This document shows, piece by piece, positions 322 through 14,320 of a DNA stretch of 20,126 nucleotides. The position numbers were made by a program, and so were the translations under genes. How positions within the stretch are numbered: the first letter of the stretch is position 1; each line of letters opens with the position of its first letter. This stretch comes from a virus: positions 1 through 20,126 of the IMG/VR virus record IMGVR_UViG_3300011114_000861; one strand, given 5' to 3'. The notes below the pieces were generated by a model. That model was given only the letters and a program-made list of their open reading frames with translations, searched no databases and was not told the DNA's origin.

Positions 322-329
322 TATTTATC
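322..329 (-). promoter_or_regulatory. Putative T4-like late promoter (GATAAATA)
   Basis: On the minus strand the octamer GATAAATA differs by one base from the T4 late-promoter consensus TATAAATA. It overlaps the TGA stop (328-330) of the upstream glycosyltransferase. Late transcripts start roughly 5-6 bases downstream of this box, which would leave a short leader carrying the GGAG ribosome site before ATG 299. There is no recognisable -35 element, as expected for a late promoter that depends on a sliding clamp and a late sigma factor. An A+T-rich octamer can occur by chance, so this rests on position as well as sequence. Confidence 0.45.
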
Positions 330-1062
330 ATTGCCAATGATTCAAAACAAGGGGATCCCGCACTTGATCAGGTTTGGGCTGTCCATGAAAAATCAGTAGG
401 CTTGTTTCAGGTCCAAATCTCGTGCCCTGTCCTGGCACCAAATGTTTACGTGTGTAAGGATCTATGCCTCCATCAAGTGCTTGCCAGCGCCAACTGACTG
501 CGGATTTTTCGGGTAAAAACCTACGTTGTGTGGGTTTTAAAACAGCAGACAAATATTCTTGATCGCCATGATATTTTGCACACAATTTGGGGATATCTTG
601 TTTGACAAACTCAGTCCAAATTCCAGCAAACTTTTTGGTATGCCAATACATCACGCTGGAATTGATACCTTGAAAATCAGGCTTCCAGAGTGTTTTGTAA
701 TCTCTTATGGCCCAAAAATAAGCCGTACTCAGTTGCGTTATCCAATCCAAGTTATTCACTATCACAGTGTCTAGATCTAGATACAACAACTGTCCTGAAT
801 GATGTTGGGGGTTGAACAACTGCATTTTATACCACCAGGATTGTCGAGCACCTTTTATACCAGGCCATTCAGTTAATATATGTTTGATCATGTGTGGCGG
901 AACTGATCTATCATGTTCGGTGTACACATGCAATCTAACAGGCGATGACAGATTGCGTGAGAGCATGCTGTACAAAGTGTCTACATATTTCCAACTGTAA
1001 ACATCGCCATGTATTACACAGGCGCAGTCAATGTGTGCGTTGAGATCAGTTTCTACTGACAT
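328..1062 (-). CDS. GT-A-type glycosyltransferase (GT8-like)
   Basis: A 244-residue protein with the layout of a retaining GT-A sugar transferase. The nucleotide-sugar/metal motif DLD is at residues 96-98 in the hydrophobic context LLYLDLDTVIVNN. It is preceded by WWYKMQLF (about 77-84), the helix that commonly precedes DxD in this group. A later GINSSVMYW segment (about 133-141) resembles the acceptor-site region. No signal peptide or membrane helix is visible, so it should act in the cytoplasm, transferring a sugar from an NDP-sugar donor; donor and acceptor are unknown. ATG 1062 overlaps the TAA of the upstream capsule-like gene by one base (TAATG), so the two are translationally coupled and probably work together. 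Confidence 0.75.
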   Translation of the reverse strand: MSVETDLNAHIDCACVIHGDVYSWKYVDTLYSMLSRNLSSPVRLHVYTEHDRSVPPHMIKHILTEWPGIKGARQSWWYKMQLFNPQHHSGQLLYLDLDTVIVNNLDWITQLSTAYFWAIRDYKTLWKPDFQGINSSVMYWHTKKFAGIWTEFVKQDIPKLCAKYHGDQEYLSAVLKPTQRRFLPEKSAVSWRWQALDGGIDPYTRKHLVPGQGTRFGPETSLLIFHGQPKPDQVRDPLVLNHWQ

Positions 1063-1913
1063 TAACTGCTTTCTAATGCAGGGGCAATTCTGCTAAGCCA
1101 AATACCTCGACGTAGTTCATCTACAGTGTACTCTGTATGACAGATTTGCGTGAGCCATAGTTCCCGATCTTTTATATACGGTTGTTCTATATCTGCAAGT
1201 CCCACGCCAACTGGGTATGCCAGACTGCTGGTTTCAACCACAGGTCTTGAGCCTGCAATAGCGGCCTGGATGCCTATACCCGAATTGTAATTTATCACAG
1301 CATGGCAATCATAATGCATGTCAAAACTGTCGTAGGTATTTTTGACTTTGTTAGGTTGCTCAACAACCACATCAGGTGGTAGATTATCTAACCGCAACCG
1401 TCCACGTGGATGTGGTCTTACAATGACAGGACGATCAGTATGTTTTTTGAGAATTGCCAGTGTGTTGAGCAACCAGGCTTGTAGGTCAACACCTGCAACT
1501 TGTAGACTGCGTTCATGTTGCATGGCCACAACGATGTTGGGTTTGTTGCTGAGTTGTTGAGCCAAACTGATCTTGAGTTTTTTTGGTCTATCCCAATCTA
1601 AATTGTTCAAATGACCATAGTAGCCTTCGGCAGTGATGTTGTTTACTGCAATCTTCCAAGTGTTGCCACGATACAATGCACCGATCTCAATCACAATCAC
1701 AGGTCGACCTTGCGCACGATAATGTTCATACACCTGTTGATTGGCGGCCATCCGGCCCGACCAAAGCACAGACCAAATAACAGCGGCATCAGAGTCCAGG
1801 CTGTTTTCTTGTGTTTCAATACCACGTGCTTGTAAACAATCAAGAACTGCATTTATAACAGGTTTGCTGTTAAGGGCGCATTGAGAAGGAAAATAGGCTA
1901 TGTTTTTGATCAT
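1062..1913 (-). CDS. Capsule-polysaccharide-synthesis-like protein (GT-B-like), subgroup A copy 1
   Basis: A 283-residue soluble protein. The central motif TDRPVIVRPHPRG (159-171) and the downstream block AVINYNSGIGIQAAIAGSRPVV (about 205-226) resemble the C-terminal, nucleotide-sugar-binding half of capsule-synthesis proteins such as KpsC/KpsS. That family transfers Kdo-type or other sugars during capsule assembly; the substrate here is unknown. The start is ATG 1913 (MIKNIAYFPS). The longer frame to 1952 would need a TTG and lies deep inside the divergent gene. The start codons of this gene and its plus-strand neighbour are at most 10 bases apart, so any promoter must lie inside the neighbouring coding sequence. 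It is one of four related proteins here (with 2721-3524, 5979-6905 and 6898-7890) and is closest to 5979-6905, which shares VRPHP. Confidence 0.65.
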   Translation of the reverse strand: MIKNIAYFPSQCALNSKPVINAVLDCLQARGIETQENSLDSDAAVIWSVLWSGRMAANQQVYEHYRAQGRPVIVIEIGALYRGNTWKIAVNNITAEGYYGHLNNLDWDRPKKLKISLAQQLSNKPNIVVAMQHERSLQVAGVDLQAWLLNTLAILKKHTDRPVIVRPHPRGRLRLDNLPPDVVVEQPNKVKNTYDSFDMHYDCHAVINYNSGIGIQAAIAGSRPVVETSSLAYPVGVGLADIEQPYIKDRELWLTQICHTEYTVDELRRGIWLSRIAPALESS

Positions 1914-2724
1914 AAGTATTGCGATGAAATACACAGTAGTTACCACTTTCAATGCGGCTGGTTATGAGAAGTATGGCCAACGCATGATCCAGACCTTTTT
2001 GCAAAACTGGCCAGCATCAGTTGATCTTGTGGTCTATGCCGAAAACTGCTGTGTAGAAGAATCTGCTGACAATCTTGCCGTAATTGATATTGCCCTGGTT
2101 TATGCATTGACAGCATTTAAACAAAGATGGCAAGGAGTTCCCCGAGCCAATGGCGATGTCAGTGATAATCCTGTGCTGGCTCAACGCCGAGATGCTGGCA
2201 AAGGATTTAAGTGGGACGCTGTGAGATTTGCCCATAAGGTCTATAGCATCTTTCATTGTGCTCAAAATATCAAGACTGATTGGTTGATCTGGATGGATGG
2301 GGATACTGTGTGTCATAGTCCCATCACCCTGTCTGATCTTGACAGGCTCTGCCCCAGTCATCATGATCTGTGCTTTTTAGGACGCAGACACAACTACACT
2401 GAATGTGGGCTGTATGCTATGAACCTAAATCATGCCATCATGGAACGTTTCTTATGGGACTTCCAACACATGTACGATGACGCCGAGAATGGTATTTTTA
2501 GATTGGTAGAATGGCATGACTCATTTGTGTTTGATGCTGTTCGTCGAAATCATCAACTGGACGAACTGGATTGGTCTGGACATTTGATTACCGGAGAAGG
2601 GCATCCTTTGATCAATTCGGAATGGGGTGCGTATCTGGATCACCTTAAAGGTGCCAGAAAAGATCTAGGACGTAGCAAGAGAGTGGATCTAAAGGTAAAA
2701 CGCACAGAAGCATACTGGCAATGA
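1900..2724 (+). CDS. GT-A-type glycosyltransferase-like protein, first gene of plus-strand cassette
   Basis: A 274-residue protein with a GT-A-like DGD motif (133-135) in the context WLIWMDGDTVCHSP. The segment GFKWDAVRFAHKVYSI before it is the likely sugar-nucleotide-binding helix, and WHDSFVFD follows near the acceptor side. The C-terminus (INSEWGAYLDHLKGARKDLG) is distinctive. I chose ATG 1900 because GAGAAGGA lies about 9 bases upstream (1883-1890). ATG 1924 (MKYTVVTTFN) has no visible ribosome site but gives a more family-like N-terminus, so both are possible. With 1900, the gene overlaps the divergent minus-strand gene head-to-head by 14 bases. Its end overlaps the next gene by ATGA. 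It probably acts with the capsule-like protein that follows; donor and acceptor are unknown. Confidence 0.7.
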   Translation: MFLIISIAMKYTVVTTFNAAGYEKYGQRMIQTFLQNWPASVDLVVYAENCCVEESADNLAVIDIALVYALTAFKQRWQGVPRANGDVSDNPVLAQRRDAGKGFKWDAVRFAHKVYSIFHCAQNIKTDWLIWMDGDTVCHSPITLSDLDRLCPSHHDLCFLGRRHNYTECGLYAMNLNHAIMERFLWDFQHMYDDAENGIFRLVEWHDSFVFDAVRRNHQLDELDWSGHLITGEGHPLINSEWGAYLDHLKGARKDLGRSKRVDLKVKRTEAYWQ

Positions 2725-3524
2725 CCTGGATATTTCTCAACAAAAACAACTGTGACGAATACATTGAAATGTTTGCGGCTGGCTGTAATACAGCACCCAC
2801 TTGTTTGGAAACCTGGCGCTACGAAGACAGCACAGATCCACTGATTATACGTGGCATTATGAAACACAAAATTATCAAACGCTGTTGGGGGGATGGCCGG
2901 CAGTTTTACTACATGGATTCGGGCTATTTGGGCAATAGACCCAGCAAAAAAAATCCTGGAGGGTGGAAACATTGGCATAGAATAGTGCCCAACGATCTAC
3001 AGCATGGATCAGTGATTGACAGACCAGCAGATAGATTTGAAAGACTAGACATAAAAATCAACTCACGACAAACAGGAGGCCGTGACATATTGTTGGTCGC
3101 TCCAGATCAAAAGCCTTGTGCATTTTATGATACCACACTCGAGTCGTGGATGGAAACCACAGTAAATCTGCTTCAACAACATACTGATCGCCCCATACGT
3201 GTGCGTGATCGTCCGGCCAGTAGATGGGATCGTAAAACACAGGTGGCACAAGATTGGCTGGAAGATGTGCATGCTGTGGTAACTTTTAACAGTACAGCGG
3301 CTACTGAATCGATATTGTCTGGTGTACCTGTTTTTGTTACAGCGCCTTCCAATGCCGCCCGGCCCATGAGCAATACAAATTTGTGTGCCATTGAACAGCC
3401 GTGGTTCCCTGATTCGGACCAGATATATAAATGGGCATGTCATTTGGCTTATGGGCAATTTCATATTGATGAATTGGCCAATGGTACCGCTGCCGCAATA
3501 CTCAAGGAGACTGCTCATGCGTGA
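2721..3524 (+). CDS. Capsule-polysaccharide-synthesis-like protein, subgroup B copy 1
   Basis: A 267-residue protein. The motif GRQFYYMDSGYLGN is at 59-72, HTDRPIRVRDRPAS at about 154-167, and VVTFNSTAATESILSGVPVF at 186-205, which resembles the capsule-synthesis/Kdo-transferase C-terminal region. The same three blocks, in the same order, occur in the minus-strand protein 6898-7890, so the two are paralogues on opposite strands. It lacks the VRPHP form found in the other two family members. No membrane segment is seen. It is coupled to the upstream glycosyltransferase by ATGA and overlaps the FkbM gene by 8 bases. The likely role is transferring or polymerising a surface sugar; this is inferred from family resemblance, not from an identified active site. 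Confidence 0.62.
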   Translation: MTWIFLNKNNCDEYIEMFAAGCNTAPTCLETWRYEDSTDPLIIRGIMKHKIIKRCWGDGRQFYYMDSGYLGNRPSKKNPGGWKHWHRIVPNDLQHGSVIDRPADRFERLDIKINSRQTGGRDILLVAPDQKPCAFYDTTLESWMETTVNLLQQHTDRPIRVRDRPASRWDRKTQVAQDWLEDVHAVVTFNSTAATESILSGVPVFVTAPSNAARPMSNTNLCAIEQPWFPDSDQIYKWACHLAYGQFHIDELANGTAAAILKETAHA

Positions 3525-4164
3525 ACAATACGGATGGTTCTTCCCAGACATCGAACAACACTTTCCCCAAATGCTGGCCAAGAATATCAGCAAAGGAGGA
3601 CCTGCTGAATATCAACAACCAGTGAGACTACGAAGTTTGCAACATGTTCGCAACAAAAGAACCGCACTGGATATTGGTGCTAATGTAGGACTATGGTCAC
3701 GCGATCTTGTGCAACATTTTGAACATGTGGTAGCATTTGAACCTGTTGAGATGTTTAGAGAGTGCTTGGAAAAGAATGTGCTTGCGTCAAACATCTCTAT
3801 TAAACCTGTGGCCTTAGGCGATTCAGATGGGCTGGTAAACATGATTATAACTGAAGGCAACACTGGTCATACTCATGTTGATCCCGACAGCAAGACTGGC
3901 TCCACAGTTATAGTAAAATTAGACACATTAAATTTGCAAAAAGTTGACTACATCAAAATTGATTGCGAAGGCTTTGAATACCGTGTGCTTCAAGGTGCCA
4001 AAGATACTATTCAACGCTGTCGGCCTGTTGTGGTAATAGAACAAAAGCCTCACGATATGTACTCAAAAGACTATGGACAGTTTGCTGCCATTTGTTTATT
4101 GGAGGATTGGGGCATGGTTCGACTAGACCAAGTCAAAGATGATTGGATCATGGGATGGCGATAG
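3517..4164 (+). CDS. FkbM-family SAM-dependent methyltransferase
   Basis: A 215-residue class I methyltransferase. Motif I is LDIGANVGLWS (51-61), the acidic motif is FEPVEMF (74-80), and the family signature YIKIDCEGFEYRVLQGA follows, the form expected of FkbM-type O-methyltransferases (IKIDxEGxE). These enzymes methylate hydroxyls of sugars, polyketides or other small molecules using S-adenosylmethionine, which fits a sugar-modifying role among glycosyltransferases. The start is ATG 3517, served by AAGGAGA (3504-3510) 6 bases upstream. A longer in-frame extension back to 3385 lies entirely within the preceding gene and is rejected. It overlaps the preceding gene by 8 bases and the next by 10. 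Confidence 0.85.
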   Translation: MREQYGWFFPDIEQHFPQMLAKNISKGGPAEYQQPVRLRSLQHVRNKRTALDIGANVGLWSRDLVQHFEHVVAFEPVEMFRECLEKNVLASNISIKPVALGDSDGLVNMIITEGNTGHTHVDPDSKTGSTVIVKLDTLNLQKVDYIKIDCEGFEYRVLQGAKDTIQRCRPVVVIEQKPHDMYSKDYGQFAAICLLEDWGMVRLDQVKDDWIMGWR

Positions 4165-4781
4165 AAGATCCTGACAAAGGAGCCGCTGATTCGGCACAAT
4201 GGTCACGCAAGTGGACCACTGACAAATACATTGCCAAACGCAGAGCAAACTTTGAAACCGTAGATGCTTACTTGAATCAGCCTGTAGGGCGATTGCTGGA
4301 CATCGGTTGTGGTTTTGCCTGGGACTCAAGATGGTTCAATGAAAAGTACGGCACAGAACTTTGGTTGTTGGATGGTGATGCCAGTAACAACACAGCCAAA
4401 CCTGAAAGTGCTAGTTATGGTAATTGGAACACAGATTCTAGTGAATTGAAGTTTTATCACACTTTTGAATTCTTAGATTCAAAATTGCAAGAACTAGGCA
4501 CAAAAAACTACCATCTTGTTGATGCCAGCATGATCAACATACCCAGTGATGTAAAGTTTGATGTCATCACCAGTTGGCTCAGTTGTGGGCATCACTATCC
4601 TGTGGCCACCTATATAGACCTAATGAAACGACATTCACACCCTGGTACCAGAATTGTGTTGGACATTAGATGCAAAGGCACAGAAACAAATTTCATTGGA
4701 GTAGATGGATTTGAAGTTGTTCGTGTGATTTCAAATGCTGGCGGTAAAAAACGTGCCACTGTGGAGATCAAGTTATTATGA
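4155..4781 (+). CDS. Class I SAM-dependent methyltransferase
   Basis: A 208-residue protein with motif I LLDIGCGFA (47-55) and the acidic second strand ELWLLDGD soon after. FDVITSWLSCGHHY fits the post-motif/motif IV strand of small-molecule methyltransferases. No target-recognition or DNA-methyltransferase catalytic motif (such as NPPY) is visible, so a small molecule or sugar is more likely than DNA. I start it at ATG 4155, which overlaps the FkbM stop; the TTG at 4143 is an alternative with no better ribosome site. The stop overlaps the next ATG (ATGA). The substrate is unknown. Confidence 0.78.
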   Translation: MAIEDPDKGAADSAQWSRKWTTDKYIAKRRANFETVDAYLNQPVGRLLDIGCGFAWDSRWFNEKYGTELWLLDGDASNNTAKPESASYGNWNTDSSELKFYHTFEFLDSKLQELGTKNYHLVDASMINIPSDVKFDVITSWLSCGHHYPVATYIDLMKRHSHPGTRIVLDIRCKGTETNFIGVDGFEVVRVISNAGGKKRATVEIKLL

Positions 4782-5452
4782 CAAGTTCTTATTACCAAGA
4801 ATCAGTTAGACTAGGGCGTGAGTTCCAAGAGAACAACAAGAGTTGGGCTGGATACGATGTTGTAAAGTATCAGAAGTGCATCAAAGACCTTGTGGATTGG
4901 TATGGCGCCCGTACCATACTCGATTATGGATGCGGCAAAGGATTACAATATAAAGAACGTTTACCTTATGGTGGCGGTGCTGGAATTGAATTGCCCCCGG
5001 ATCAATGGCAAACGTTTGACAAATACCTTGGTGTCAATGTCTATTGTTACGATCCTTGTGTGGCAGGCTTTGAACAACTGCCCGCTGACGGCACAAAGTT
5101 TGATGGGGTAATATGTACACAGGTGCTGAACAGCATACCCGACGATGACATGCCGTGGGTGCGGAAACGTTTGGAATCCTACGCTGAAAAGTTTTGTTTC
5201 ATTGGCATAAATTTTCAACGCAAAGCCAAAGGCAAAAAGAGCATGTACGATCCTGCACACTTTCAACAGCCTAGAACACGTGACTTCTTTCGCAGTCACT
5301 ATACTGACTGGAACTCGGGTGATTTGTTCTGGTGGTGGAAAGATCGTCCTTACTACAACACTTGGCTAGAAGACCAATTAAACGCAACGTGGAAGGATGT
5401 GCCTGATACTTTCAGTGGCAAGTATGAATACATAGAGGTAAATCACAGATGA
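4778..5452 (+). CDS. Class I SAM-dependent methyltransferase-like protein
   Basis: A 224-residue protein with motif I ILDYGCGKG (47-55) and an acidic strand end VYCYDPCV (about 82-89). FDGVICTQVLNSIPDDD then gives the strand-4 region with a following loop. The C-terminal 70 residues are rich in aromatic residues (FWWWKDRPYYNTW) and may form the substrate pocket. It belongs to the same general fold as the genes before and after but is too different for a recent duplication. ATGA overlaps on both sides give tight coupling. The substrate is unknown; neighbours argue for a glycan or its precursor. Confidence 0.74.
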   Translation: MTSSYYQESVRLGREFQENNKSWAGYDVVKYQKCIKDLVDWYGARTILDYGCGKGLQYKERLPYGGGAGIELPPDQWQTFDKYLGVNVYCYDPCVAGFEQLPADGTKFDGVICTQVLNSIPDDDMPWVRKRLESYAEKFCFIGINFQRKAKGKKSMYDPAHFQQPRTRDFFRSHYTDWNSGDLFWWWKDRPYYNTWLEDQLNATWKDVPDTFSGKYEYIEVNHR

Positions 5453-6006
5453 TTATAGATCCCAAATACCAAGAGCAATTGATTACTATGCACCAGCAGG
5501 GTAGATTCGTAAATGGTGCCAAAACCGCCAAGGTTGTACGTTCAATAATTGAACGTTATAATCCCACAAGTGTGTTGGATTTTGGATGCGGTGTAGGTGC
5601 GTTGGTCAACTCCTTGCAAGAAACTTATCCCAACATGCGTGTGGAAGGTTATGATCCAGGCAATGTGGAACACAGTCGTATACCCAAACGCTCATTTGAT
5701 GTCATAGTCAGTGCAGATGTATTTGAACACATTGAGCCCGAGCATTTGGCTGCAACTTTACAGTTGATTGGTAGCAAGATGCTAGTGGCTGGATGGTTTA
5801 GAATTGCCTGCTATCCTGCGAAGAAACAGTTACCAGATGGACGCAATGCTCACTTGATTGTGGAGAAGCCAGAATGGTGGCGTGAACAGTTGTTGGCCAA
5901 CATGAACGTTGATATTGTTTCAGAAGATATTTCTATATTTGACAAAAGCCAAAAGTGGCCTGAAGTTCGAGGCTGGAATTACGACGTTGTGGTAGAAGTC
6001 AAGTAA
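5449..6006 (+). CDS. Class I SAM-dependent methyltransferase, last gene of plus-strand cassette
   Basis: A 185-residue methyltransferase with motif I VLDFGCGVG (42-50), acidic motif VEGYDPG, and DVIVSADVFEHIEPEHL, the DVxEHI pattern typical of UbiE/Methyltransf_11-type small-molecule methyltransferases. It is short for the family but looks complete. It starts by ATGA overlap with the preceding gene. Its 3' end overlaps the convergent minus-strand gene tail-to-tail by 28 bases, so there is no room for a terminator and the two transcripts would be antisense there. The substrate is unknown; a sugar or lipid-linked intermediate is plausible. Confidence 0.78.
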   Translation: MIIDPKYQEQLITMHQQGRFVNGAKTAKVVRSIIERYNPTSVLDFGCGVGALVNSLQETYPNMRVEGYDPGNVEHSRIPKRSFDVIVSADVFEHIEPEHLAATLQLIGSKMLVAGWFRIACYPAKKQLPDGRNAHLIVEKPEWWREQLLANMNVDIVSEDISIFDKSQKWPEVRGWNYDVVVEVK

Positions 6007-6905
6007 GGCAGAAACTTTTGCCAGATACGCCCGGCCTGTGCGTCTGCATCACTCCAGTGTGCGGTGGCCAAATCCCATAACCATTGTTCTCTTTCAAACA
6101 CCCGACTTGATTCTATTTGTGAGATAGTGTGATGTGCCACTGACCAAGTGACTGCGCTGGCGTCATCAACAAACACCGGTACACCTTCCAACACCGCAGC
6201 CACACTTGCACTGCTGTTAAAAAACACCGAGGAATGTGCCTGTTGTAAATTTTCCAACAACGTAGATTGTGTGGGATCAATCACCCGAACATTCAGTTTG
6301 TTGTGAAACTGCGCAAACTCTCTCATATCAAACTTGCCAGGGTGTGGACGTACAACAATTGCTCGATTGGTGTATTTTCTGATTTCTTGTATTTTACGTT
6401 CAAGCCACAACAAAGGGCTCAAAGTTTTCATACTAAATCCACCATCACGTTGCATACCAATCAAGATATAACCATCTCTTGATTGATCAGGCTTGAGTTG
6501 GATATGCAATCTGTTTTGAATTTCTTGCCACTTGGTAGAATCACTGTTGCGATTTGCGTACTCCGCACGATCATAAAATGGACCACCTAAACTATAGCGC
6601 AGATAGGTACCTGATTGATCCTGGTACTTGAAACAACTGGCATCAATGCACATGGTATCAAGTCCACGTCTGTGTTGTTCAGATATGATTTCTTTGCGCA
6701 AGGCAATGTTACGACCGCCGGTGTTGGTGGTTGCCCAACCCAGCATCACTGCCAATCTACTGGGTGTGTATACGTAATCATGTTCCAGCCTAACTTGGCC
6801 TCCACAGTTGGCAACACCGGTGGCAAAACTCTCAAGACATTGCTGTTTGCGGCTGTGTTTTTTGACATTGGCCACACTGGAAATGTACACAACACAATCA
6901 AGCAT
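5979..6905 (-). CDS. Capsule-polysaccharide-synthesis-like protein, subgroup A copy 2
   Basis: A 308-residue soluble protein. YILIGMQRDGGFSMKT (about 146-161) is followed by YTNRAIVVRPHPGKF (178-192), then SVFFNSSASVAAVLEGVPVF. This is the order of blocks seen in the capsule-synthesis/Kdo-transferase C-terminal half, with the VRPHP form shared with 1062-1913. The middle segment YLRYSLGGPFYDRAEYANR is an additional conserved-looking block. ATG 6905 overlaps the upstream paralogue by 8 bases, so two members of the family are made from one message. It is the last gene of the 14-gene run that begins at gp32 and collides with the plus-strand cassette. The donor sugar is unknown. Confidence 0.65.
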   Translation of the reverse strand: MLDCVVYISSVANVKKHSRKQQCLESFATGVANCGGQVRLEHDYVYTPSRLAVMLGWATTNTGGRNIALRKEIISEQHRRGLDTMCIDASCFKYQDQSGTYLRYSLGGPFYDRAEYANRNSDSTKWQEIQNRLHIQLKPDQSRDGYILIGMQRDGGFSMKTLSPLLWLERKIQEIRKYTNRAIVVRPHPGKFDMREFAQFHNKLNVRVIDPTQSTLLENLQQAHSSVFFNSSASVAAVLEGVPVFVDDASAVTWSVAHHTISQIESSRVFEREQWLWDLATAHWSDADAQAGRIWQKFLPYLTSTTTS

Positions 6906-7890
6906 TGTTTAATATGCGCCAGGCGGTACCATCACGCATTTCCGCTTCAGTAAATTGACAATATGCTATGTGGCGGGCCCAGGCCTCAACTTCGTCCAAT
7001 GTAGGGACTTTGAGATTTTCAATTTCTGACAAACTCTGACTGCACAGTGGCGCGGCTGCATTTGGTCCCAGTGTGATTGCAGGTTTGCCATGTAGCAAGG
7101 CTTCGCCTGCGGCAATGCTGGAAAATGTAACCAAACAATGTACATCGCGATCCAAGGCCATTTCCATGGTATCGTCGTTGACTCTGGTACTGCGTCCTTG
7201 CTTGGTTCTAATTACCACGGGTCTGTCAGTGTATTGAGCGATTTCTTCTTGTACATTGGCCAACCATTCTTTAAGATTGATATCATAATTGTTCAATAAT
7301 TTTTGGCTAGGCGGAGCCAACAAGATATTACGACCACGTCTAAACTTTTTGAGTTGTACTCCGATTTTGCTTAGTCTATCCCCAGGACGTTCTATTACAG
7401 GCCCAAACCACTGTACATCATTGCGTGTGATTCTATGGTACAGTTTCTTTTTACCATTACCAAAATAACCAGTGTCGATATAAAAGAAATCTCTGCCGGC
7501 TGCACGACATGCTTCCATTTGCTTGCGTTTGGTAATACCTCGCAACACCACAGGAGTTGTGGTAAATTCTTCTTTTGACCATGTGCTGATCTGTCCTCCA
7601 GCACCTTGCACAAAACTTTGTAGGATAGGATCGTACATGTGTCCTTTTCTTTCGTATCTATATTCGCTGTCAGTGCTTACTATGTTATTAACTGGCAATG
7701 CGGCAATTTGCGCATACAATGTTTGCAGTGTAATGCCATAGACTGATCCTGCGGAATCCACGCGATACTTTAATATGTTATCAAATATGTCTCGAATCTC
7801 AGGTACAACTTGATCTAACACATGCGGTTCTGGTGGTGCAGGAGGTGCAGGTGGGATATATGATGATTCATCTTCCTGTTCCCAAATCAT
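6898..7890 (-). CDS. Capsule-polysaccharide-synthesis-like protein with extra N-terminal region, subgroup B copy 2
   Basis: A 330-residue protein. About 115 extra N-terminal residues include a proline-rich linker (YIPPAPPAPPEP, about 12-23) encoded by short GGTGCA-type repeats. The C-terminal part carries GRDFFYIDTGYFGN (132-145), YTDRPVVIRTKQGRS (220-234) and CLVTFSSIAAGEALLHGKP. These blocks match the plus-strand paralogue 2721-3524. I start it at ATG 7890, whose ATG overlaps the TGA of the upstream glycosyltransferase (ATGA). The longer frame to 7911 would use TTG. The proline linker suggests a separate N-terminal domain, perhaps for partner binding. Function is inferred as glycan synthesis; no active site is proven. 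Confidence 0.63.
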   Translation of the reverse strand: MIWEQEDESSYIPPAPPAPPEPHVLDQVVPEIRDIFDNILKYRVDSAGSVYGITLQTLYAQIAALPVNNIVSTDSEYRYERKGHMYDPILQSFVQGAGGQISTWSKEEFTTTPVVLRGITKRKQMEACRAAGRDFFYIDTGYFGNGKKKLYHRITRNDVQWFGPVIERPGDRLSKIGVQLKKFRRGRNILLAPPSQKLLNNYDINLKEWLANVQEEIAQYTDRPVVIRTKQGRSTRVNDDTMEMALDRDVHCLVTFSSIAAGEALLHGKPAITLGPNAAAPLCSQSLSEIENLKVPTLDEVEAWARHIAYCQFTEAEMRDGTAWRILNNA

Positions 7891-8576
7891 TCTATCAACC
7901 TTTGCTGACAATATTCAGTTAGTATGCGTTCTCGGTGCCATTCATCGGCTTGAGGAGTATCAGCAAATTCATGAAAGCAAGGTGTGCCCAAGGTGTAATG
8001 CAATAACTTAGCATCTGGGTTAGGCCCGTATTCATCAGGCAACCAGTTCCACTCTCTTGGCAACTCCCCAATACGATCGTCTTCTATCCAGGTAAAGCGA
8101 TGAAGTTCAGCGCCGGTAGATCGCTGGATAAAGTCAGGTGTAAGTTTCCTATTAGGATAAGTGCCGCAATTCCATAGAATAACACTAGACCAATTTTTTC
8201 TCGGGTAATTTTCATTTTTTGCACCTAAATATTTTTCTGTCATCCGGGTTTGATAATCATGTTTGACCACTTGCACATCTTTGCTGTATTCACGTAGGGC
8301 CCATAACTTTGAAATGTCATCTCTCAAGATCATGTCGCCATCGATAAAGATGGCATGACCTACATAGTTCATTAGATATGGCACTAGGAAACGTGTGTAG
8401 ATAAAGTGATTTGATCCGTCGGTGTGTGTTTCACTATAGTCTTGAAACAAGTTCAAGGCCACTGGCACAATGCTCACAGGGCAAGTTGCATGTCTGATGA
8501 TCGAATTCACACAGGTGTGATAAGCAATGGCTTCTCGAGGATCATACCCAATAAAGATTGGTATAATGTCTTTCAT
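7887..8576 (-). CDS. GT8-like glycosyltransferase
   Basis: A 229-residue protein starting MKDIIPIFIGYDPREAIAYH, the usual N-terminus of GT8/LgtC-like enzymes that bind the nucleotide-sugar. The metal-binding DGD is at 79-81 in AIFIDGDMILRDD. An asparagine-containing acceptor segment (SSVILWNCGTYPNR) and C-terminal LLHYTLGTPCFHEF follow; the latter corresponds to the HxxG-type metal site of GT8. These features make it the clearest glycosyltransferase in the window. It should act in the cytoplasm on a phage- or host-derived glycan. ATG 8576 overlaps the upstream stop (ATGA) and its own stop overlaps the next start (ATGA), so it is coupled to the activating enzyme before it and to the capsule-like gene after it. 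Confidence 0.83.
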   Translation of the reverse strand: MKDIIPIFIGYDPREAIAYHTCVNSIIRHATCPVSIVPVALNLFQDYSETHTDGSNHFIYTRFLVPYLMNYVGHAIFIDGDMILRDDISKLWALREYSKDVQVVKHDYQTRMTEKYLGAKNENYPRKNWSSVILWNCGTYPNRKLTPDFIQRSTGAELHRFTWIEDDRIGELPREWNWLPDEYGPNPDAKLLHYTLGTPCFHEFADTPQADEWHRERILTEYCQQRLIE

Positions 8577-9331
8577 CGACGTTCGATGTCCTCTTCCACA
8601 CAATTTTCGCCGTATTGAATTTCAATCAACTTCAAAGGATTGTCAGTTTCATTGCACAATTGATGCCATTCATTGAGTCGGATCCAGGTCGACTGATGCT
8701 TTGAGGGACTGGCCATCAAGTCATATTCTGTACTATGCGGGTCAACTGTGTACACCGTGGCTTCACCTTCTGCTACAAACCAAAACTCTGCACGTTGGTC
8801 ATGGCGTTGCATACTAAGGCATGTTTTGGGATTGACTGTGAGTTCTTTTAACTTGACGTGATTTCCTACTTCGTGTAGCACACGATAGTAACCCCAAGCA
8901 CGTTCTGTCCGGGGTTTCTTCCAGTCTTCAAGTATCCACGAACTAGAGTTGGCTTTGTCCTCGCCGCCTACACCAAACACAAACTCTACATCATCAAATA
9001 TCATTTCTGGAATATTTTCTGCCGTGCGATCTCCGCCATTGGCAAAAATAATTTCATCATTGGGATATTTTTGTTTAACCTGCCGAATAGCATCGCAGGC
9101 TGTGCCATCTGTATCGTCAAATTCAATCACTTCGCCAACCATATGCAGATTGTCTAGTATAGTCATACGTTCACGCCAAGACATAAACGGACGATCTTTT
9201 TTGCGTGTAAGCCAAGCATCTGAGTTCAATGCCACGACCACATGATCGCCCAGATGGTCGGCGTGATTGAGATAGGAAATATGCCCGGAGTGAAGTGGGT
9301 CGAACCCGCCTGAAACAATTACGATTTTCAT
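8573..9331 (-). CDS. Nucleotidyltransferase-cupin fusion (sugar activation)
   Basis: A 252-residue two-domain protein. Residues 1-135 are a cytidylyltransferase-like domain: SGGFDPLHSGH (7-17) carries the HxGH signature, WRERMTIL (52-59) follows, and NSSSWIL (128-134) matches the C-terminal nucleotide loop. This resembles the adenylyl/cytidylyl domain of HldE/RfaE or TagD. Residues 145-245 resemble the cupin of type II mannose-6-phosphate isomerase/ManC: WGYYRVLHE, then LSMQRHDQRAEFWFVAEGEATV (about 172-193) with the metal-ligand region QRH, then WHQLCN. The protein probably makes an NDP-activated sugar or polyol for the downstream glycosyltransferases, but which one is open. I start at ATG 9331; a frame extends upstream without a good start. 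There is an 8-base gap to the gene before. Confidence 0.8.
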   Translation of the reverse strand: MKIVIVSGGFDPLHSGHISYLNHADHLGDHVVVALNSDAWLTRKKDRPFMSWRERMTILDNLHMVGEVIEFDDTDGTACDAIRQVKQKYPNDEIIFANGGDRTAENIPEMIFDDVEFVFGVGGEDKANSSSWILEDWKKPRTERAWGYYRVLHEVGNHVKLKELTVNPKTCLSMQRHDQRAEFWFVAEGEATVYTVDPHSTEYDLMASPSKHQSTWIRLNEWHQLCNETDNPLKLIEIQYGENCVEEDIERR

Positions 9332-9339
9332 GCAGGTAT

Positions 9340-9792
9340 TTACACCTGGATATCTTCCATGCCCGCAGTTCTTAGCCGCACCACATGTCCTGACATCCAG
9401 GATTTGGAGTCTAGGCCTTTCATGACTCCTAGCCAACGATTACGGAGATAGGCCACTTCGTTAATGATGGTTTCATAATCAATCACTTCATCTTCGCCAT
9501 CCACGTATTTTTCAGCATCTCTAGATGTAAGAGCACGGGCATAATTTTCAAGATATTTTTGAAAGTGCTTTCTGCGTATTTTTCTCAATTGTATGTTGAG
9601 GTAATTGAGTACTGCTTCAATCTCTTGCAGTTGATTGAATCTATGTTCGGTTATTCCAGGCAAGGCTGTGATATTTTTTTCTACTATGCCAGAGATTTTA
9701 CAGTCTCGTTTGGCATCTTCAAGTTCGCGCTCGTAGTGACTGATAAAATCTGGAACTGCGGCAAGACTGGCAACTATTCTACTGTACCACAT
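9340..9792 (-). CDS. uvsY: UvsY-like recombination mediator
   Basis: A 150-residue, charge-rich, helical protein. In T4, UvsY (about 137 residues) helps load UvsX onto single-stranded DNA coated by gp32. Here size, helical character and position in the same operon as uvsX and gp32 agree with that role. The basic stretch LRKIRRKHFQKYLE (about 70-83) would suit DNA contact, and the C-terminal segment contains YLRNRWLGVMKGLDSKSW. I call it from these features rather than from a diagnostic catalytic motif, so an unrelated helical protein is the main alternative. ATG 9792 is preceded by AAAGAG and is only 2 bases from the stop of the previous gene. Its base composition is close to that of uvsX, unlike the A+T-rich genes upstream. 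Confidence 0.6.
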   Translation of the reverse strand: MWYSRIVASLAAVPDFISHYERELEDAKRDCKISGIVEKNITALPGITEHRFNQLQEIEAVLNYLNIQLRKIRRKHFQKYLENYARALTSRDAEKYVDGEDEVIDYETIINEVAYLRNRWLGVMKGLDSKSWMSGHVVRLRTAGMEDIQV

Positions 9793-9794
9793 GA

Positions 9795-10379
9795 TTATGA
9801 CTCTTTAAAATATTGTTGTAACTGTAATAAAATATCGCAGTGAGATGTTTCAAACACATGCTTGGTGAGTGTTTTTTGTTTCAGCAAGTTTGTCAAGATT
9901 GGTTTTTGGCAAGATAAACGCCAGATTCCATTGTTGTACAAAACATTTGTTCGCACATCTTTCCAAGTATTGCCTTGTGCATTATATGCATTTTTTTGTT
10001 GTTCTGTCAAGTGATAGGTGGTGAGACTATATTGCCTCAAAAAATCAGGTAGCAGTTTTACCTGATTTATTTCTATCCAGTTAATGTGTACACACTGATT
10101 GGCAATAATTTGATTGTCAATGACTTTGGTATCTTGTGCTTGTTTGTTGATATAATGCAATTCTACATTTAATGCTGAACTGTTGATTTTTAAATTTTCA
10201 AAATGTAATTCATTGTGTTCAATCAATGTATTTTGCCAATGAATACAATTATCTATTATGAGTTTGACATGAGGATATCTTGTGTCTACAGGTACTCCTG
10301 TCAAACTCATTTTGATTGTGTGAGATTCTGACTCGGCTATTAGATACTGAATTTCTGGTATAGAATCAATGAGTGCCAA
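9795..10379 (-). CDS. Unrecognised protein, possibly beta-sandwich ligand-binding
   Basis: A 194-residue protein with no motif I can name. Residues about 20-110 alternate beta-like strands (HTIKMSLTGVPVDTRYPHVK, LNVELHYINKQAQDTKVIDN), a pattern that resembles carbohydrate-binding beta-sandwich modules. That is a weak structural guess. No signal peptide or cysteine pattern is visible. The start is TTG 10379: a strong GAGGAG site (10387-10392) sits 7 bases upstream, and the first in-frame ATG would remove 23 residues. It overlaps the preceding radical SAM gene by 14 bases. Like that gene it is A+T-rich, suggesting they arrived together and may act together. Confidence 0.6.
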   Translation of the reverse strand: MALIDSIPEIQYLIAESESHTIKMSLTGVPVDTRYPHVKLIIDNCIHWQNTLIEHNELHFENLKINSSALNVELHYINKQAQDTKVIDNQIIANQCVHINWIEINQVKLLPDFLRQYSLTTYHLTEQQKNAYNAQGNTWKDVRTNVLYNNGIWRLSCQKPILTNLLKQKTLTKHVFETSHCDILLQLQQYFKES

Positions 10380-11877
10380 CTGCTGACTCCTCGAGTGCCG
10401 ATAACATATTGTTGTAAATTGAATTTAGAACAATTAGGTCTTCTCTTGCAAAAGCCACCGGAATGCCCAGAGCGTCACAAAATTCCTGAGCAATAATTCT
10501 TCTTCTTACTCTTTCTCGGAGAGTGAGAGTAGAATTTTTGAGCCATATCCAGTCATAAGGATTGTCAGATGTGTACTCAAAGTCGTTCAAACGATAATGC
10601 TGGGCATCATCAAACATCAAAGTATACCCTAATCTAATATTGCTTATAGTTCCATCAAAGAAATATCTTTGCAATTTTTTCAATAAATCTAATGTTGACA
10701 AGAAATCTTGCCAGGTTTCATTATAGAATCCTATTAAAAAAAGCAAATTACAATCAATATTATATTGATGAAATTTTGTTATTTCATACAACAAATCTTC
10801 TACAGTAGTATTTTTTTTCATTTCTGCCAGCACCCTATTACTACCGCTTTCGGCACCAATAGTTAGTCCGTGAGCACCCGACAATTTAAGCAATTGAAAA
10901 TCATCATTGGTCATTTGATTTTGAGTCCGGCATATATAATTACCATGCCATTTAATTTGATTTTGCGGATTAGTTTGATTGTACTCTGCTAAAATTCTAA
11001 CAAAATTTTTAAATTCTTTCAAAGATCCATTGGTCAAACTGTCTGTAAATTGAAATTTATATATTCCATATTTTTTGCTCAAATAGATTACTTCGTTGGC
11101 AATTTTGATTCCAGTTTTGAAATAATACTGTGAATAGTTACTGTGTTCTGAGCAAAAGACACATTGACGAATGCAACCTTTGGAACCTTGAACCAATAAC
11201 TTTTTTTCATTATTAGTAAAAAGATATTGATCTAATTTGTAATCATCAAAACTAGGAACGTAGTCATAATCAAATTTGGTTTCGTTGGAAATCAAAGAAC
11301 TCAAATAGTTATCAGAACTTCTTAGAACATTTACTAATTCTTGTTCTCCATCGTTAACAATAGCAAAGTCTGTTAATTTCTTAGATAACATAAAATTAGC
11401 AAAACTAGTTTTCTTTTCAAAATAATTTAAACTAGATATTGAATACAGTCCTTTTGGCGGCTGTGTACAACCCATGCCTCCAATAATAATTTTACATTCA
11501 AATTTTGAATTTTTAATTTTCTGGCAAAGAAAGTAACAAAATCTCTGTTGCCATAGACTAAAAACACTCAAAGCCAAAAACCGTGGATTAAATTCTTCCA
11601 ATAGGTTTAAGAATTCATTGATTGCCTGATTCAGTTGAAATTTATGTTGCTCACTTACCTTGTTATAATCCACATGATTGGGCAAACTGTTTCCCCACTC
11701 AAGATAAGTCTCATAATGTCCCTTGAAAATTTTTTGTAAGCAATGCAGTGAAAAATCCAGTGTTCGACAAGTAAATCCTTGCTTTTCTACTGCTGATTTT
11801 AATAAGGCTGGTGCTATAGGAGGTTCATTCAAATAATTTGGTGGTAGTGTGGCCAATAATAAATCCAATTGATTCAT
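10366..11877 (-). CDS. Radical SAM protein with B12-binding-like N-terminal domain
   Basis: A 503-residue enzyme. The N-terminal part (about 1-140) has the opening of B12-binding radical SAM proteins (LPPNYLNEPPIAPALLKSAV, then a Rossmann-like IIIGGMG at 130-136), but no DxHxxG cobalamin-histidine motif, so cobalamin may be bound base-off or not at all. The radical SAM cluster is C235, C239 and C242 in GSKGCIRQCVFCSEHS. Downstream, LTIGAESGSNRVL and LLFLIGFYNET match the later strands of the barrel. It would use S-adenosylmethionine and a [4Fe-4S] cluster for a radical reaction on an unknown substrate. It is strikingly A+T-rich: 10741-10800 has 12 G+C in 60. ATG 11877 overlaps the previous stop by one base (TAATG). 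Confidence 0.82.
   Translation of the reverse strand: MNQLDLLLATLPPNYLNEPPIAPALLKSAVEKQGFTCRTLDFSLHCLQKIFKGHYETYLEWGNSLPNHVDYNKVSEQHKFQLNQAINEFLNLLEEFNPRFLALSVFSLWQQRFCYFLCQKIKNSKFECKIIIGGMGCTQPPKGLYSISSLNYFEKKTSFANFMLSKKLTDFAIVNDGEQELVNVLRSSDNYLSSLISNETKFDYDYVPSFDDYKLDQYLFTNNEKKLLVQGSKGCIRQCVFCSEHSNYSQYYFKTGIKIANEVIYLSKKYGIYKFQFTDSLTNGSLKEFKNFVRILAEYNQTNPQNQIKWHGNYICRTQNQMTNDDFQLLKLSGAHGLTIGAESGSNRVLAEMKKNTTVEDLLYEITKFHQYNIDCNLLFLIGFYNETWQDFLSTLDLLKKLQRYFFDGTISNIRLGYTLMFDDAQHYRLNDFEYTSDNPYDWIWLKNSTLTLRERVRRRIIAQEFCDALGIPVAFAREDLIVLNSIYNNMLSALEESAVGTH
10387..10392 (-). promoter_or_regulatory. Ribosome binding site deciding a TTG start
   Basis: The minus strand reads GAGGAG, complementary to the 3' end of 16S rRNA, with 7 bases before TTG 10379. 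No other start in that frame is as well placed. It lies inside the end of the upstream radical SAM gene, so translation of the two genes is likely coupled. Confidence 0.55.
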
Positions 11878-12134
11878 TAATTTTCCCAGTCTTCTTCCTC
11901 TTCGTACTCATCTTCGTCGTACTCATCTTCCTCATAGTCCTTGTCATTGTCAAGGTACGTGGTCAAAGCACGTTTGATGTCACCGTCGCCTTTGAAGGCG
12001 TTTCTAATATCTTCCACGTCCGAATCATTGTCCATCAAGATCTGTATCACAGTTTCTGCGGCTTCCGCACGGTCCACTGTGTTTACAAAACGCTTGAGTT
12101 CAGACCATATTTCACTTGCTATTGTTTCACTCAT
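11877..12134 (-). CDS. Small acidic protein adjacent to uvsX
   Basis: An 85-residue protein. The first 60 residues look helical (SEIWSELKRFVNTVDRAEA, then DIRNAFKGDGDIKRALTTYL). The last 22 are almost entirely Asp, Glu and Tyr, encoded partly by a 15-base tandem repeat. Highly acidic C-termini in phage replication proteins often bind partners or mimic DNA; T4 gp32 is an example. Its position directly after uvsX, with an 8-base overlap, suggests a role around recombination. That is inference, as I recognise no family domain. It ends where the radical SAM gene starts (TAATG). Its composition is nearer to uvsX than to the A+T-rich gene downstream. Confidence 0.75.
   Translation of the reverse strand: MSETIASEIWSELKRFVNTVDRAEAAETVIQILMDNDSDVEDIRNAFKGDGDIKRALTTYLDNDKDYEEDEYDEDEYEEEEDWEN
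11902..11931. repeat. 15-base tandem repeat in acidic tail (2 copies)
   Basis: Two adjacent 15-base units (TCGTACTCATCTTCG, then the same ending in C) match at 14 of 15 positions. On the coding strand they give repeated Asp/Glu/Tyr units in the tail of the small acidic protein. The unit is a multiple of three, so copy number could change the length of the acidic tail without a frameshift. Confidence 0.7.
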
Positions 12135-13185
12135 CTGGTGTTTCCTCCTGGGTACTTACCTCTTCTTTGCGTCGACCAAACTCTGACATCACAATGTCAA
12201 GCACACCACCTTCGTTTGACTCCCAGGCTTTGCGGAAGTGTTTGAGAATTTCACCGTCTAGTGTAGTGTAAGCCAAACGATTGCCGTCCTTTTTCAAGAA
12301 GCCTTTCTTTTCAGCCAAGTCCACCAAGCCTGAGTAAGGATTCATGCCTGTTTCGTAAGGAATCTTGACCTGCACACCTTCAAAGGGTTTGGCATAACGT
12401 GTTTTCATTACCTTGCAGGCTGAGCGAATACCCATGACGTCTGACACTTTGTTGCCGTCCTCGTCCTCTTTGAGTTTGAGTTTCTTCATAGCAACAACAA
12501 TACTACTGGCGTAAATAAAACCTTGACCGCCGGAGATCTTGTCATCAGGATCAAACATATCCTGGCTGGCATAGGTGTGATTGGTACATACCAAGCCCAC
12601 GTTGTAACTGCCAAACATGTTGACACAGTTGCGAACTAATGCAGTGAGTGCCTTGGGCTTCCTACCCAGGTCGCCTTTCATTTCACCTGCATCAAACTGA
12701 TTAACATCTGTGGGGGTAAGCAACATGCCCAATGAATCAATCACAAACAACACTTTGGGGCGTTCTCCATCTGCTAGGCCCTTGTAGTCACTCATAAATG
12801 TAGAAATAGTTTTGGCCACATCATCAATCATGGCCATGCTTAGTTTTAATAACTTTGATTCTGATGTATCAACTCCTAACGCTTTGAGCCAATCTTCGTC
12901 AAGAGCGTTTTCAGTATCAATCAACACCACAAAGATGCCTTGTTCTTGTGCGTTCTTGATAATGTTGCCTGAACAGATATAACTTTTACCTGCTCCTGAT
13001 TCACCGGCAAACACAGTTACCTTTCCCAAGGGAATACCTCGGTTAAAGTCTCCTGAAATTAGGTAGTTCAAGGCATAGTTGCCTGTGGAGATCCAGTCTG
13101 TGGGATCATTGAATCCGATTGACAAGCCGTCAATGCTTTTGGTGATTTCCTTGCGGAACTTGCTTACGTCAAATGGTTTTGCCAT
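12127..13185 (-). CDS. uvsX: UvsX, RecA-like recombinase
   Basis: A 352-residue RecA-family ATPase. Walker A is GESGAGKS (61-68). Walker B is the VLFVID region (145-150), followed by SLGMLLTP. The loop after LVCTNHTYASQDMFDPDD and the SGGQGFIYASS segment fit the DNA-binding L2 region and core end of UvsX/RecA. T4 UvsX (about 390 residues) forms filaments on single-stranded DNA and drives strand exchange, with UvsY and gp32 as partners; all three are present here. The C-terminus is acidic (EVSTQEETPDE). ATG 13185 has an AAGGA site (13194-13198) 8 bases upstream. It overlaps the radical SAM gene before it by 17 bases and the small acidic gene after it by 8. Confidence 0.93.
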   Translation of the reverse strand: MAKPFDVSKFRKEITKSIDGLSIGFNDPTDWISTGNYALNYLISGDFNRGIPLGKVTVFAGESGAGKSYICSGNIIKNAQEQGIFVVLIDTENALDEDWLKALGVDTSESKLLKLSMAMIDDVAKTISTFMSDYKGLADGERPKVLFVIDSLGMLLTPTDVNQFDAGEMKGDLGRKPKALTALVRNCVNMFGSYNVGLVCTNHTYASQDMFDPDDKISGGQGFIYASSIVVAMKKLKLKEDEDGNKVSDVMGIRSACKVMKTRYAKPFEGVQVKIPYETGMNPYSGLVDLAEKKGFLKKDGNRLAYTTLDGEILKHFRKAWESNEGGVLDIVMSEFGRRKEEVSTQEETPDE

Positions 13186-14320
13186 AGTTTATGTCCTTAT
13201 ATAAATCTTTAAAAATTGTCTTGCTATCTACGCCCCTACGTCGATCCAATTCTGATAACCGATCAATGGACTGTTGAATATTTTTTCCAAATGGAGTATC
13301 AATATAGTGTAGCAAATTTTGATAACTGTCTTCAAGAAGATAACCTGGTTTTTGGCTGATCCTATCTTGTAACTTGTTCTTTACAGAGTTTAGCACACTT
13401 TCTGGTAAGTGTCTAATATTTAGGTATTCAGGATTCAACAATGCTCCAATCACAAAACTGTTGTTGTGAAATCCTAAAGATTTCAAAAAATCAACACAGT
13501 CAAATATAGAGTTGTAGTTTAATAAAAAATGCAACATGTTGAAAGAAATTTTGTGACCCAACTGCTTGATAATGGTTAGGTTATCCAAAAAATCTGTCCA
13601 CTTACCGCCATGTCGTACATACTCAAATTCTTGTGCTTGCGTTTCAACGCTGACGGTCCAATGCACATTTGAAAATTTACATATGGCCTCAAACACCCTG
13701 GTATCGACTTTGCTTAGGTTGGTGTTGATTCTAATATTGGTGTCAGGGCGCAATTTTTCCAAGAGTGTTAGATTTTCTTTCATCAACAACGGCTCACCGC
13801 CGGCCAGGTACACATGCTTGAGTTGAGACGCATGTTCGTAAATGTAATTTTTAAAATCCGTTAACTGATGTTGATTGGGTATGTCATGCTGGATTTTGAG
13901 TTCTTCGCTCCATCGACTACTAAATTCAGGACCGCAATATACGCATGCAAAATTGCAAAGGTTGGTCCAACGCACATCAACTGTTTGTAAATCAAAGCGA
14001 CCAATTTGATAAGTGTCAATTGGTGTGCTTTTCAATTCTCGTATGTAAAACACGCGGTCACTGATATGATCAAATCCTTTTTTGCCACGGTCTAGGTCGT
14101 AACAGGTATAGCAAGTTTTTACTGGCATTTGATCAACAATTTCTTGCTGTCTTTCACGATTGTTATCAACTAGAATTTGACCAATAGGTTGATCTTTGAT
14201 ATTGCCAAGCGGTCCAGTACTGCGAATACAATTTTTAACTTTACCGTCAAAATTATACATCATGCCTGTCCAGGGCATGGGACAGAAATATGGATTGGTC
14301 AACATATCACGTGGAGTCAT
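13169..14320 (-). CDS. Twitch-type radical SAM protein 1
   Basis: A 383-residue radical SAM enzyme. The cluster-binding cysteines are C122, C126 and C129 (NLCNFACVYCG), and GGEP (174-177) is the usual SAM-contact motif of strand 2. Additional cysteines at 13, 31, 70 and 73, ahead of the barrel, could hold an auxiliary cluster in the twitch/SPASM style, though at the N-terminal side. Later blocks (IRINTN and KWTDFLDNL) are shared with 14859-15824, so the two are distant paralogues. The substrate is unknown: peptide, sugar or nucleotide intermediates are all possible. ATGA overlap couples it to the SDR gene before it. It is A+T-rich (13261-13320: 17 G+C of 60) compared with uvsX. Confidence 0.83.
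   Translation of the reverse strand: MTPRDMLTNPYFCPMPWTGMMYNFDGKVKNCIRSTGPLGNIKDQPIGQILVDNNRERQQEIVDQMPVKTCYTCYDLDRGKKGFDHISDRVFYIRELKSTPIDTYQIGRFDLQTVDVRWTNLCNFACVYCGPEFSSRWSEELKIQHDIPNQHQLTDFKNYIYEHASQLKHVYLAGGEPLLMKENLTLLEKLRPDTNIRINTNLSKVDTRVFEAICKFSNVHWTVSVETQAQEFEYVRHGGKWTDFLDNLTIIKQLGHKISFNMLHFLLNYNSIFDCVDFLKSLGFHNNSFVIGALLNPEYLNIRHLPESVLNSVKNKLQDRISQKPGYLLEDSYQNLLHYIDTPFGKNIQQSIDRLSELDRRRGVDSKTIFKDLYKDINYGKTI

Follow-up and report, generated by a model that had tools for sequence, protein, structure and literature searches.

We report that a 20,126-nucleotide stretch of viral DNA (IMG/VR record IMGVR_UViG_3300011114_000861; hereafter the window) encodes four homologous proteins, A to D (Table 1), which almost certainly constitute a family of glycosyltransferases with the GT-B fold of the bacterial enzyme KpsC. 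The four represent ancient orthologous groups that are kept as one cluster. None of them has the Asp nucleophile of the retaining 3-deoxy-D-manno-oct-2-ulosonic acid (Kdo) transferases whose fold they share, and in B and D the His that binds cytidine monophosphate (CMP) is also replaced by Arg or Lys. We favor, with a confidence only a little better than even, the explanation that the four belong to a phage glycan locus in which A and C would be inverting transferases of CMP-activated sugars and B and D would use a different donor.

Homology among the four proteins

A reading of the window from its sequence alone had proposed four related capsule-synthesis-like proteins in two subgroups. All four open reading frames (ORFs) were found where this sequence-only reading had placed them, and each encodes a single module of 267-330 amino acids. 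Every pair of proteins gave a significant match in blastp. B and D were the closest with 38% identity (E 3e-53), and the remaining pairs gave E values of 5e-16 (A/B), 2e-14 (A/D), 2e-10 (B/C), 4e-10 (A/C) and 7e-10 (C/D). The motif VRPHP after T-D/N-R is present in A (TDRPVIVRPHP) and C (TNRAIVVRPHP) as described, and G-R-x-F-x-Y-x-D-x-G-Y-x-G-N is present in B (GRQFYYMDSGYLGN) and D (GRDFFYIDTGYFGN). An FNS/FSS block followed by a G-x-P or G-S-R-P turn had been ascribed to all four; B, C and D have FNS or FSS and then G-x-P, whereas A has YNS before G-S-R-P. The columns of these motifs are mostly 90-100% conserved among about 90-100 orthologues per protein. On the phylogenetic tree, B and D are sister groups; A and C have the HP motif in common yet form separate supported clades.

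D begins with an N-terminal extension of ~70 residues (7678-7890) that is partly helical and absent from A, B and C. It is confined to D orthologues and occurs nowhere else in large related contigs, and in one 343-kb contig there is a stop inside the stretch matching it.

The fold links the four proteins to KpsC

AlphaFold models of C and D were computed on alignments of the window's own sequences with related viral ones, and their mean predicted local distance difference test (pLDDT) scores were 92.9 and 89.7, respectively. When the models were compared with the PDB by Foldseek, the top 23 matches of C and all 14 matches of D with E <1e-3 were KpsC, WbbB or KrkA. Alignment with KpsC (6mgc) by VIA-align gave a Z of 14.7 for C (root-mean-square deviation (rmsd) 3.7, 243 aligned) and 12.7 for D (rmsd 4.4, 217 aligned), while the best GT-B protein outside the KpsC/WbbB/KrkA group reached 11.2 and 9.1. 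A polysialyltransferase (5wcn) was among the general GT-B matches of C with a Z of 10.1 and an rmsd of 7.5. Middling Z values are common among GT-B proteins, and the argument is one from the consistent lead of a single group, not from absolute Z. The predicted structures of C and D resemble KpsC, as the sequence-only reading had anticipated; neither an absence of matches among the four proteins nor unrelated folds was seen. For A and B, homology to the modelled C and D suggests the same fold.

The link to KpsC was examined further with profiles. On the bacterial side, PF05159 served to find genomes, from which 16 modules of KpsC type and 10 of KpsS type were chosen by their Q...D...HP signature. 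When a broad set of phage sequences was aligned locally, profile against profile, with those of KpsC type, the probability was 96.1 (E 2.9e-9), and reversed-sequence controls stayed below 1. In the aligned columns, E-D-G of KpsC corresponds to the phage E/D-x-G, Q to Q, K-x-H-P to R-x-H-P, and the phosphate-binding Ser to Ser. The profile of C also matches bacterial KpsS-type modules (probability 95.1, E 3.5e-8), the group to which KpsS and KpsS1, a transferase of pseudaminic acid, belong. KpsS-type modules keep both QXXXD and HP, which the phage proteins do not.

The relationship is visible only by such profile-profile and fold comparisons. The sequence-only reading had looked to PF05159 (Capsule_synth, cut-off 20 bits) for it, and this family gave no match in the window at E up to 10 with positive controls. 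Scans of the four proteins with NCBIfam and PHROGs returned no real matches, phmmer with D against PDB sequences found nothing relevant, and the joint C/A profile reached WbbB at E 0.005 only. PF20471 (DUF6716) was rejected as a name for the family: B scored 18.4 bits and D 13 bits, below the cut-off of 27 bits, over 30-44 residues around the Ser motif.

The best-named viral fold matches were "capsule polysaccharide biosynthesis proteins" of Tetraselmis virus 1, a giant algal virus (E about 1e-15, template modeling (TM) score 0.68-0.75), which are 13-20% identical to the phage proteins. In at least four Tetraselmis virus 1 proteins (BFVD A0A2P0VNK4, A0A2P0VP54, A0A2P0VP74 and A0A2P0VP72) the fold closely matches that of C. 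Judging from the models, sets of KpsC-fold proteins may exist in giant viruses as well.

The active site departs from that of retaining Kdo transferases

KpsC (GT107), WbbB (GT99) and KrkA (GT140) are retaining beta-Kdo transferases that take part in making capsules and O-antigens. The nucleophile of WbbB and KpsC is the Asp of QXXXD, and their base is a Glu (PMC9587256, PMC10148158); KrkA binds CMP through the His and Pro of (K/R)XHP together with a Ser pair, and its H227A variant is inactive (PMC12887879). The Asp and the His have been described as absolutely conserved among known retaining Kdo transferases (PMC9587256, PMC10148158). Asp-to-Ala variants are inactive, and mutation of the His severely impairs WbbB (PMC9587256).

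We compared these positions in sets of 89-102 orthologues per group (A 102, B 101, C 91, D 89). In common with the bacterial enzymes, the phage set has the GT-B fold, the acidic base motif and the CMP-phosphate-binding Ser. The base position is always acidic (Glu or Asp in A, 102/102; Asp, as a candidate base, in B, C and D), the Ser is invariant in all four groups (S224 of A, 102/102), and the Arg of R-x-H or R-x-K/R is kept across all of them. A and C also have the Gln of QXXXD and, in every orthologue, (K/R)XHP with its invariant His (H181 of A, 102/102; H188 of C, 91/91); the spacing from His to Ser is 43 residues in A and C versus 44 in KrkA. B and D lack (K/R)XHP. The His position is occupied by Arg in 99 and Lys in 2 of the 101 B orthologues (R164) and by Lys in all 89 of D (K237), and both proteins have four conserved basic residues here (R162, R164, R168 and R171 in B; R235, K237, R240 and R243 in D), where A and C have fewer.

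The Asp nucleophile of QXXXD was found in none of the four. At its position, which depends on the alignment, all 102 orthologues of A have Ser and 90 of the 91 of C have Gly, and B and D lack the Gln as well as the Asp. Because this Asp is missing, the four fall outside the retaining beta-Kdo transferases as these are defined; they belong to the KpsC-fold glycosyltransferase group. The phage proteins differ from the bacterial enzymes also in the Arg/Lys of B and D, in being single modules encoded by phages, and in having no PF05159 match. The two subgroups recognized from motifs by the sequence-only reading are borne out by active sites that differ in two ways; the difference at the His site and the missing nucleophile had escaped it.

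Members with canonical motifs exist within the family. Both QxxxD and HP are kept in two of them, one from a Manatee Spring podovirus (L251) and one from a marine contig (L257:1512-2429).

In some relatives the plus-strand cassette of the locus contains a fifth member that evolves fast (L067:8003-8845, L082:5626-6465 and L083:4567-5397). Its basic motif reads R-x-K and the otherwise invariant Ser is gone as well (GDRTMAC or GERTMAC); from its sequence it is a candidate for a real loss of nucleotide binding.

The four genes form an old and conserved set

No reference-set phage matched the window at the DNA level. IMG/VR yielded hundreds of relatives for A, B and D and dozens for C. Since their contigs reach 343 kb, the window virus is from a jumbo-phage-like lineage of freshwater bacterial viruses. 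The moraphages, to which these viruses may or may not belong, have a core genome with four putative glycosyltransferase groups (PMC12619734).

In 49 distinct viral loci holding all four genes, A, C and D were always on one strand and B on the opposite one. In all 49, the last 8 or more nucleotides of D were shared with the start of C, although overlaps longer than 11 nt depend on the start codon chosen. Two contigs of >300 kb have exactly four members each, in a single cluster of ~6 kb. The ratio of nonsynonymous to synonymous substitution rates (dN/dS) against the nearest relatives was 0.07-0.12 and lowest in D, the values being rough as dS was high (1.6-2.2). The four genes are under purifying selection, and decaying gene copies were rejected on these ratios. 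The sequence-only reading had inferred a 7-kb expansion, from which it suggested different linkages or sugars in one polymer; according to the tree and to distant phages, the four are instead old lineages kept together. A recent tandem duplication was rejected, as each orthologous group predates the split of the freshwater viruses. The Lys/Arg (K/R) state in place of His requires three changes on the tree, and a constraint to one clade was not rejected (approximately unbiased (AU) test, p 0.154); a single origin of this state is not proven.

Relatives farther away carry the same types in other numbers. Marine contigs L259 and L260 have two HP-type and two K-type members, and L257 has three HP-type and one K-type. 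Hypothetical proteins of the Caulobacter phages C1 and CcrColossus and of Pelagibacter phage Mosig belong to the same family, with two copies per phage versus four in the window. One HP-type and one K-type member adjoin each other after the tail genes in C1 (gp163/gp164) and CcrColossus (gp127/gp128), whereas the window set lies in a replication block. Mosig has two K-type members (185/187) beside sulfotransferase-like and glycosyltransferase genes.

A search of genome contigs with a family alignment returned seven contigs of metagenome-assembled genomes (MAGs), six of which carry further family members. Contigs L257, L258, L259, L260 and L261, up to 335 kb and assigned to Marinimicrobia, Verrucomicrobia, Rickettsiales and Pelagibacter MAGs, have the same paralogue set, and L260 has a UvsY match. 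They appear to be phage contigs that were wrongly binned with bacteria, and do not look like host genes.

Proposed mechanism and its alternatives

What we observe is that the four share an ancestor and a fold, are kept as a set with one layout and show the active-site pattern described above; each step beyond the fold, the homology and the site pattern is one that we infer. A and C would use R-x-H-P and the Ser to bind a sugar activated with CMP, either Kdo or some other acidic one from the host, and their motifs make such a donor fairly probable. The Glu/Asp of the E/D-x-G motif would activate the acceptor and, with no Asp nucleophile present, the sugar would be transferred in one inverting step; granted a CMP-sugar donor, the sequences give a single inverting displacement about an even chance. 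This would resemble the HP-motif sialyltransferases (GT38, GT52 and GT80), which have (K/R)XHP and an acidic base and invert without an Asp nucleophile. In B and D the base and the Ser are still present, and the Arg/Lys in place of His together with the extra conserved basic residues would most likely suit a different, more charged donor, an NDP-sugar (nucleoside diphosphate sugar). That B and D are active with another donor is, on the residues they conserve, a possibility we rate slightly short of even. C and D are probably translated together, since their genes overlap. The four proteins and the neighboring glycosyltransferases, methyltransferases and sugar nucleotidyltransferase would make a methylated oligosaccharide, most likely placed on the host surface or the virion. 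A broader proposal, more tentative still, is that phages reworked the KpsC fold into HP-type one-step inverting CMP-sugar transferases and a widespread K/R type for a different nucleotide-sugar, and kept these as a fixed set.

Several points weigh against this mechanism. The active-site alignment between the phage proteins and KpsC is made at about 12-15% identity, and the donor suggested for A and C comes from motifs. The nucleotidyltransferase that the phage itself encodes belongs to a type producing NDP-sugars. The window is a 20-kb fragment of its genome, and gene absence was judged in 10 related contigs of 114-343 kb, possibly incomplete; with positive controls, no CMP-sugar synthetase (PF02348) was found in them, and a CMP-sugar, if used by A and C, would therefore be supplied by the host. 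Lastly, C has an Asp two residues past the Gln in 85/91 orthologues, which might replace the nucleophile.

The altered His site would also be explained if B and D were non-catalytic partners (pseudo-glycosyltransferases) in active heterodimers, D with C and B with A. The missing His is essential in enzymes of this fold, as seen from the KrkA variant with Ala, which is inactive (PMC12887879), and the severely impaired WbbB variant (PMC9587256), and the overlap of D with C in all 49 loci has counterparts in Caulobacter phage C1 and in the marine contigs L257 and L259, where a K-type gene overlaps an HP-type gene. Gene overlaps are common in phages, however. In addition, B and D retain the invariant acidic base and phosphate-binding Ser and have gained a basic cluster instead of losing one, which fits a ligand site, and Mosig has two K-type members with no HP-type match seen. 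We consider the partner role unlikely.

Less likely again is that another residue, in C the Asp mentioned above, has become the nucleophile, which would leave A and C as retaining Kdo transferases of the ordinary kind and B and D as variants of them. Such a role would agree with the conservation of this Asp, of the Gln and of the overall fold, and with the two distant members that have canonical QxxxD and HP. Yet A has no conserved acid within ten residues from Q145, and more distant members of the C clade carry N, Q, R or K at the site, so the Asp of C could hardly be relied on as a nucleophile. By contrast, the Asp of the known retaining Kdo transferases has been described as absolutely conserved, and its change to Ala abolishes activity (PMC9587256).

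Glycosylation of hypermodified DNA bases, in the manner of T4 beta-glucosyltransferase, would suit the place of the cluster inside a replication/recombination block but is very improbable: a search of the same 10, maybe incomplete, contigs with positive controls found no dCMP/dUMP hydroxymethylase of the thymidylate synthase family (PF00303), making T4-type base modification unlikely, the FkbM methyltransferase, cupin and heptose-type nucleotidyltransferase indicate carbohydrate, and the Caulobacter phage relatives come after tail genes.

Genomic context

The window carries T4-like recombination and replication genes, and the cluster sits within them, with UvsX, UvsY and gp32 on one side and a UvsW-like helicase on the other; it is beyond the glycan block that relatives have the UvsW-like helicase, and an AAA ATPase as well. 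The locus runs from a minus-strand glycosyltransferase and A, through a plus-strand island of the GT-A-like gene, B and the methyltransferases, to C, D, the GT8-like gene and the nucleotidyltransferase-cupin gene on the minus strand. The sequence-only reading had placed at least one member of each subgroup beside a GT-A-type enzyme. The glycosyltransferase next to A and the GT8-like gene are real, while the GT-A call for the gene before B is weakly supported. The number of methyltransferase genes differs among relatives. At the edges of the plus-strand island there are 10 bp between the divergent start codons with A (1914-1923) and a 28-bp tail-to-tail overlap with C (5979-6006), and these near-zero spacers suggest an old inversion of the cassette.

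Table 1. Features of the window and the evidence for them. Residues of protein A are counted from the TTG start of its ORF at 1952.
Feature	Position	Strand	Evidence or remarks
Virus contig, full window	1-20,126		IMG/VR record IMGVR_UViG_3300011114_000861
Glycosyltransferase adjoining A	328-1062	-	phrog_1962 E 1.7e-20; conserved neighbor of A in relatives
Protein A	1062-1913 (from ATG)	-	KpsC-fold GT-B, HP type: E89-x-G, Q145, R179-x-H181-P182, S224
GT-A-like glycosyltransferase, overlaps start of B	1924-2724	+	Weak: Glyco_tranf_2_3 E 0.06; conserved beside B in relatives
Protein B	2721-3524	+	K/R type: D66-x-G, R162-x-R164 replacing R-x-H, S191
FkbM-family methyltransferase	3517-4164	+	Methyltransf_21 E 5e-19; TIGR01444 E 1.7e-27
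Class I methyltransferase	4155-4781	+	Methyltransf_23 E 1.9e-8
Class I methyltransferase-like	4778-5452	+	phrog_24759 E 5e-12
Class I methyltransferase, tail-to-tail overlap with C	5449-6006	+	Methyltransf_23 E 8e-11
Protein C	5979-6905	-	HP type: D88, Q152, R186-x-H188-P189, S231
Protein D	6898-7890	-	K/R type: D146-x-G, R235-x-K237, S265; 8-nt overlap of its end with start of C
GT8-like glycosyltransferase, 4-nt overlap with start of D	7887-8576	-	Glyco_transf_8 E 2e-7
Sugar-phosphate nucleotidyltransferase (HldE/TagD type) fused to mannose-6-phosphate-isomerase-type cupin	8573-9331	-	CTP_transf_like E 8e-13; MannoseP_isomer E 2e-21
UvsY-like protein	9340-9792
UvsX/RecA	12127-13185		66-70% identical to jumbo phages Phosso and Atu_ph07
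gp32-like single-stranded DNA-binding protein	16431-17420

With paralogous glycosyltransferases beside sugar-nucleotide and decorating enzymes, the locus has the composition of a phage lipopolysaccharide (LPS)/capsule-modification cluster. Clusters of the P-SSM2 type in jumbo cyanophages likewise combine paralogous glycosyltransferases, a cupin and a HIGH-type nucleotidyltransferase (PMC7824862), and the window nucleotidyltransferase shares 46-50% identity with its counterparts in S-SSM7 and P-TIM68. Unlike these clusters, the window block has no epimerase/kinase complement and has a fixed set of four KpsC-fold proteins. Only the nucleotidyltransferase half of the fusion matches jumbo cyanophages, and this lineage may be alone in having the two halves joined.

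Other genes of the window were noted as well. A short protein (3-299) that runs off the window adjoins the first glycosyltransferase; it has no family match, and similar ones lie beside the cluster in relatives (L007:5812-6324). It looks beta-rich, and that it could be a virion protein and the acceptor is only a guess. The protein at 15805-16431 is sulfotransferase-like by eye with no library match, and in Mosig an annotated sulfotransferase lies between the two family members; sulfation may be part of the locus product. Three different radical SAM proteins lie among UvsX and gp32 (10366-11877, 13169-14320 and 14859-15824), two with Radical_SAM matches (E 9e-14 and 2e-14) and the third weak (phrog_14086, E 3e-12). 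Relatives differ in whether and where they have these genes, and no product is evident. No RNA family or tRNA was found in the window, and promoter and terminator scans of it yielded nothing above chance.

Significance

Glycan clusters with paralogous glycosyltransferases are already known from jumbo phages (PMC7824862), and PMC12619734 reports virion glycosylation as known in mycobacteriophages. In the literature we found no description of phage KpsC-fold proteins or of a subfamily with His changed to Lys/Arg, which is weak evidence as most subscription journals lay outside the search. Proteins annotated merely as hypothetical in jumbo, Caulobacter and Pelagibacter phages are now given a function class. 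The retaining Kdo transferases are documented double-displacement glycosyltransferases in which the Asp and the His have been described as invariant. If our explanation is true, a widespread and conserved phage family that keeps their fold without the Asp and, in one subfamily, without the His would allow the change of mechanism and of donor to be tested directly, and the members with canonical motifs within the same family would aid that test.

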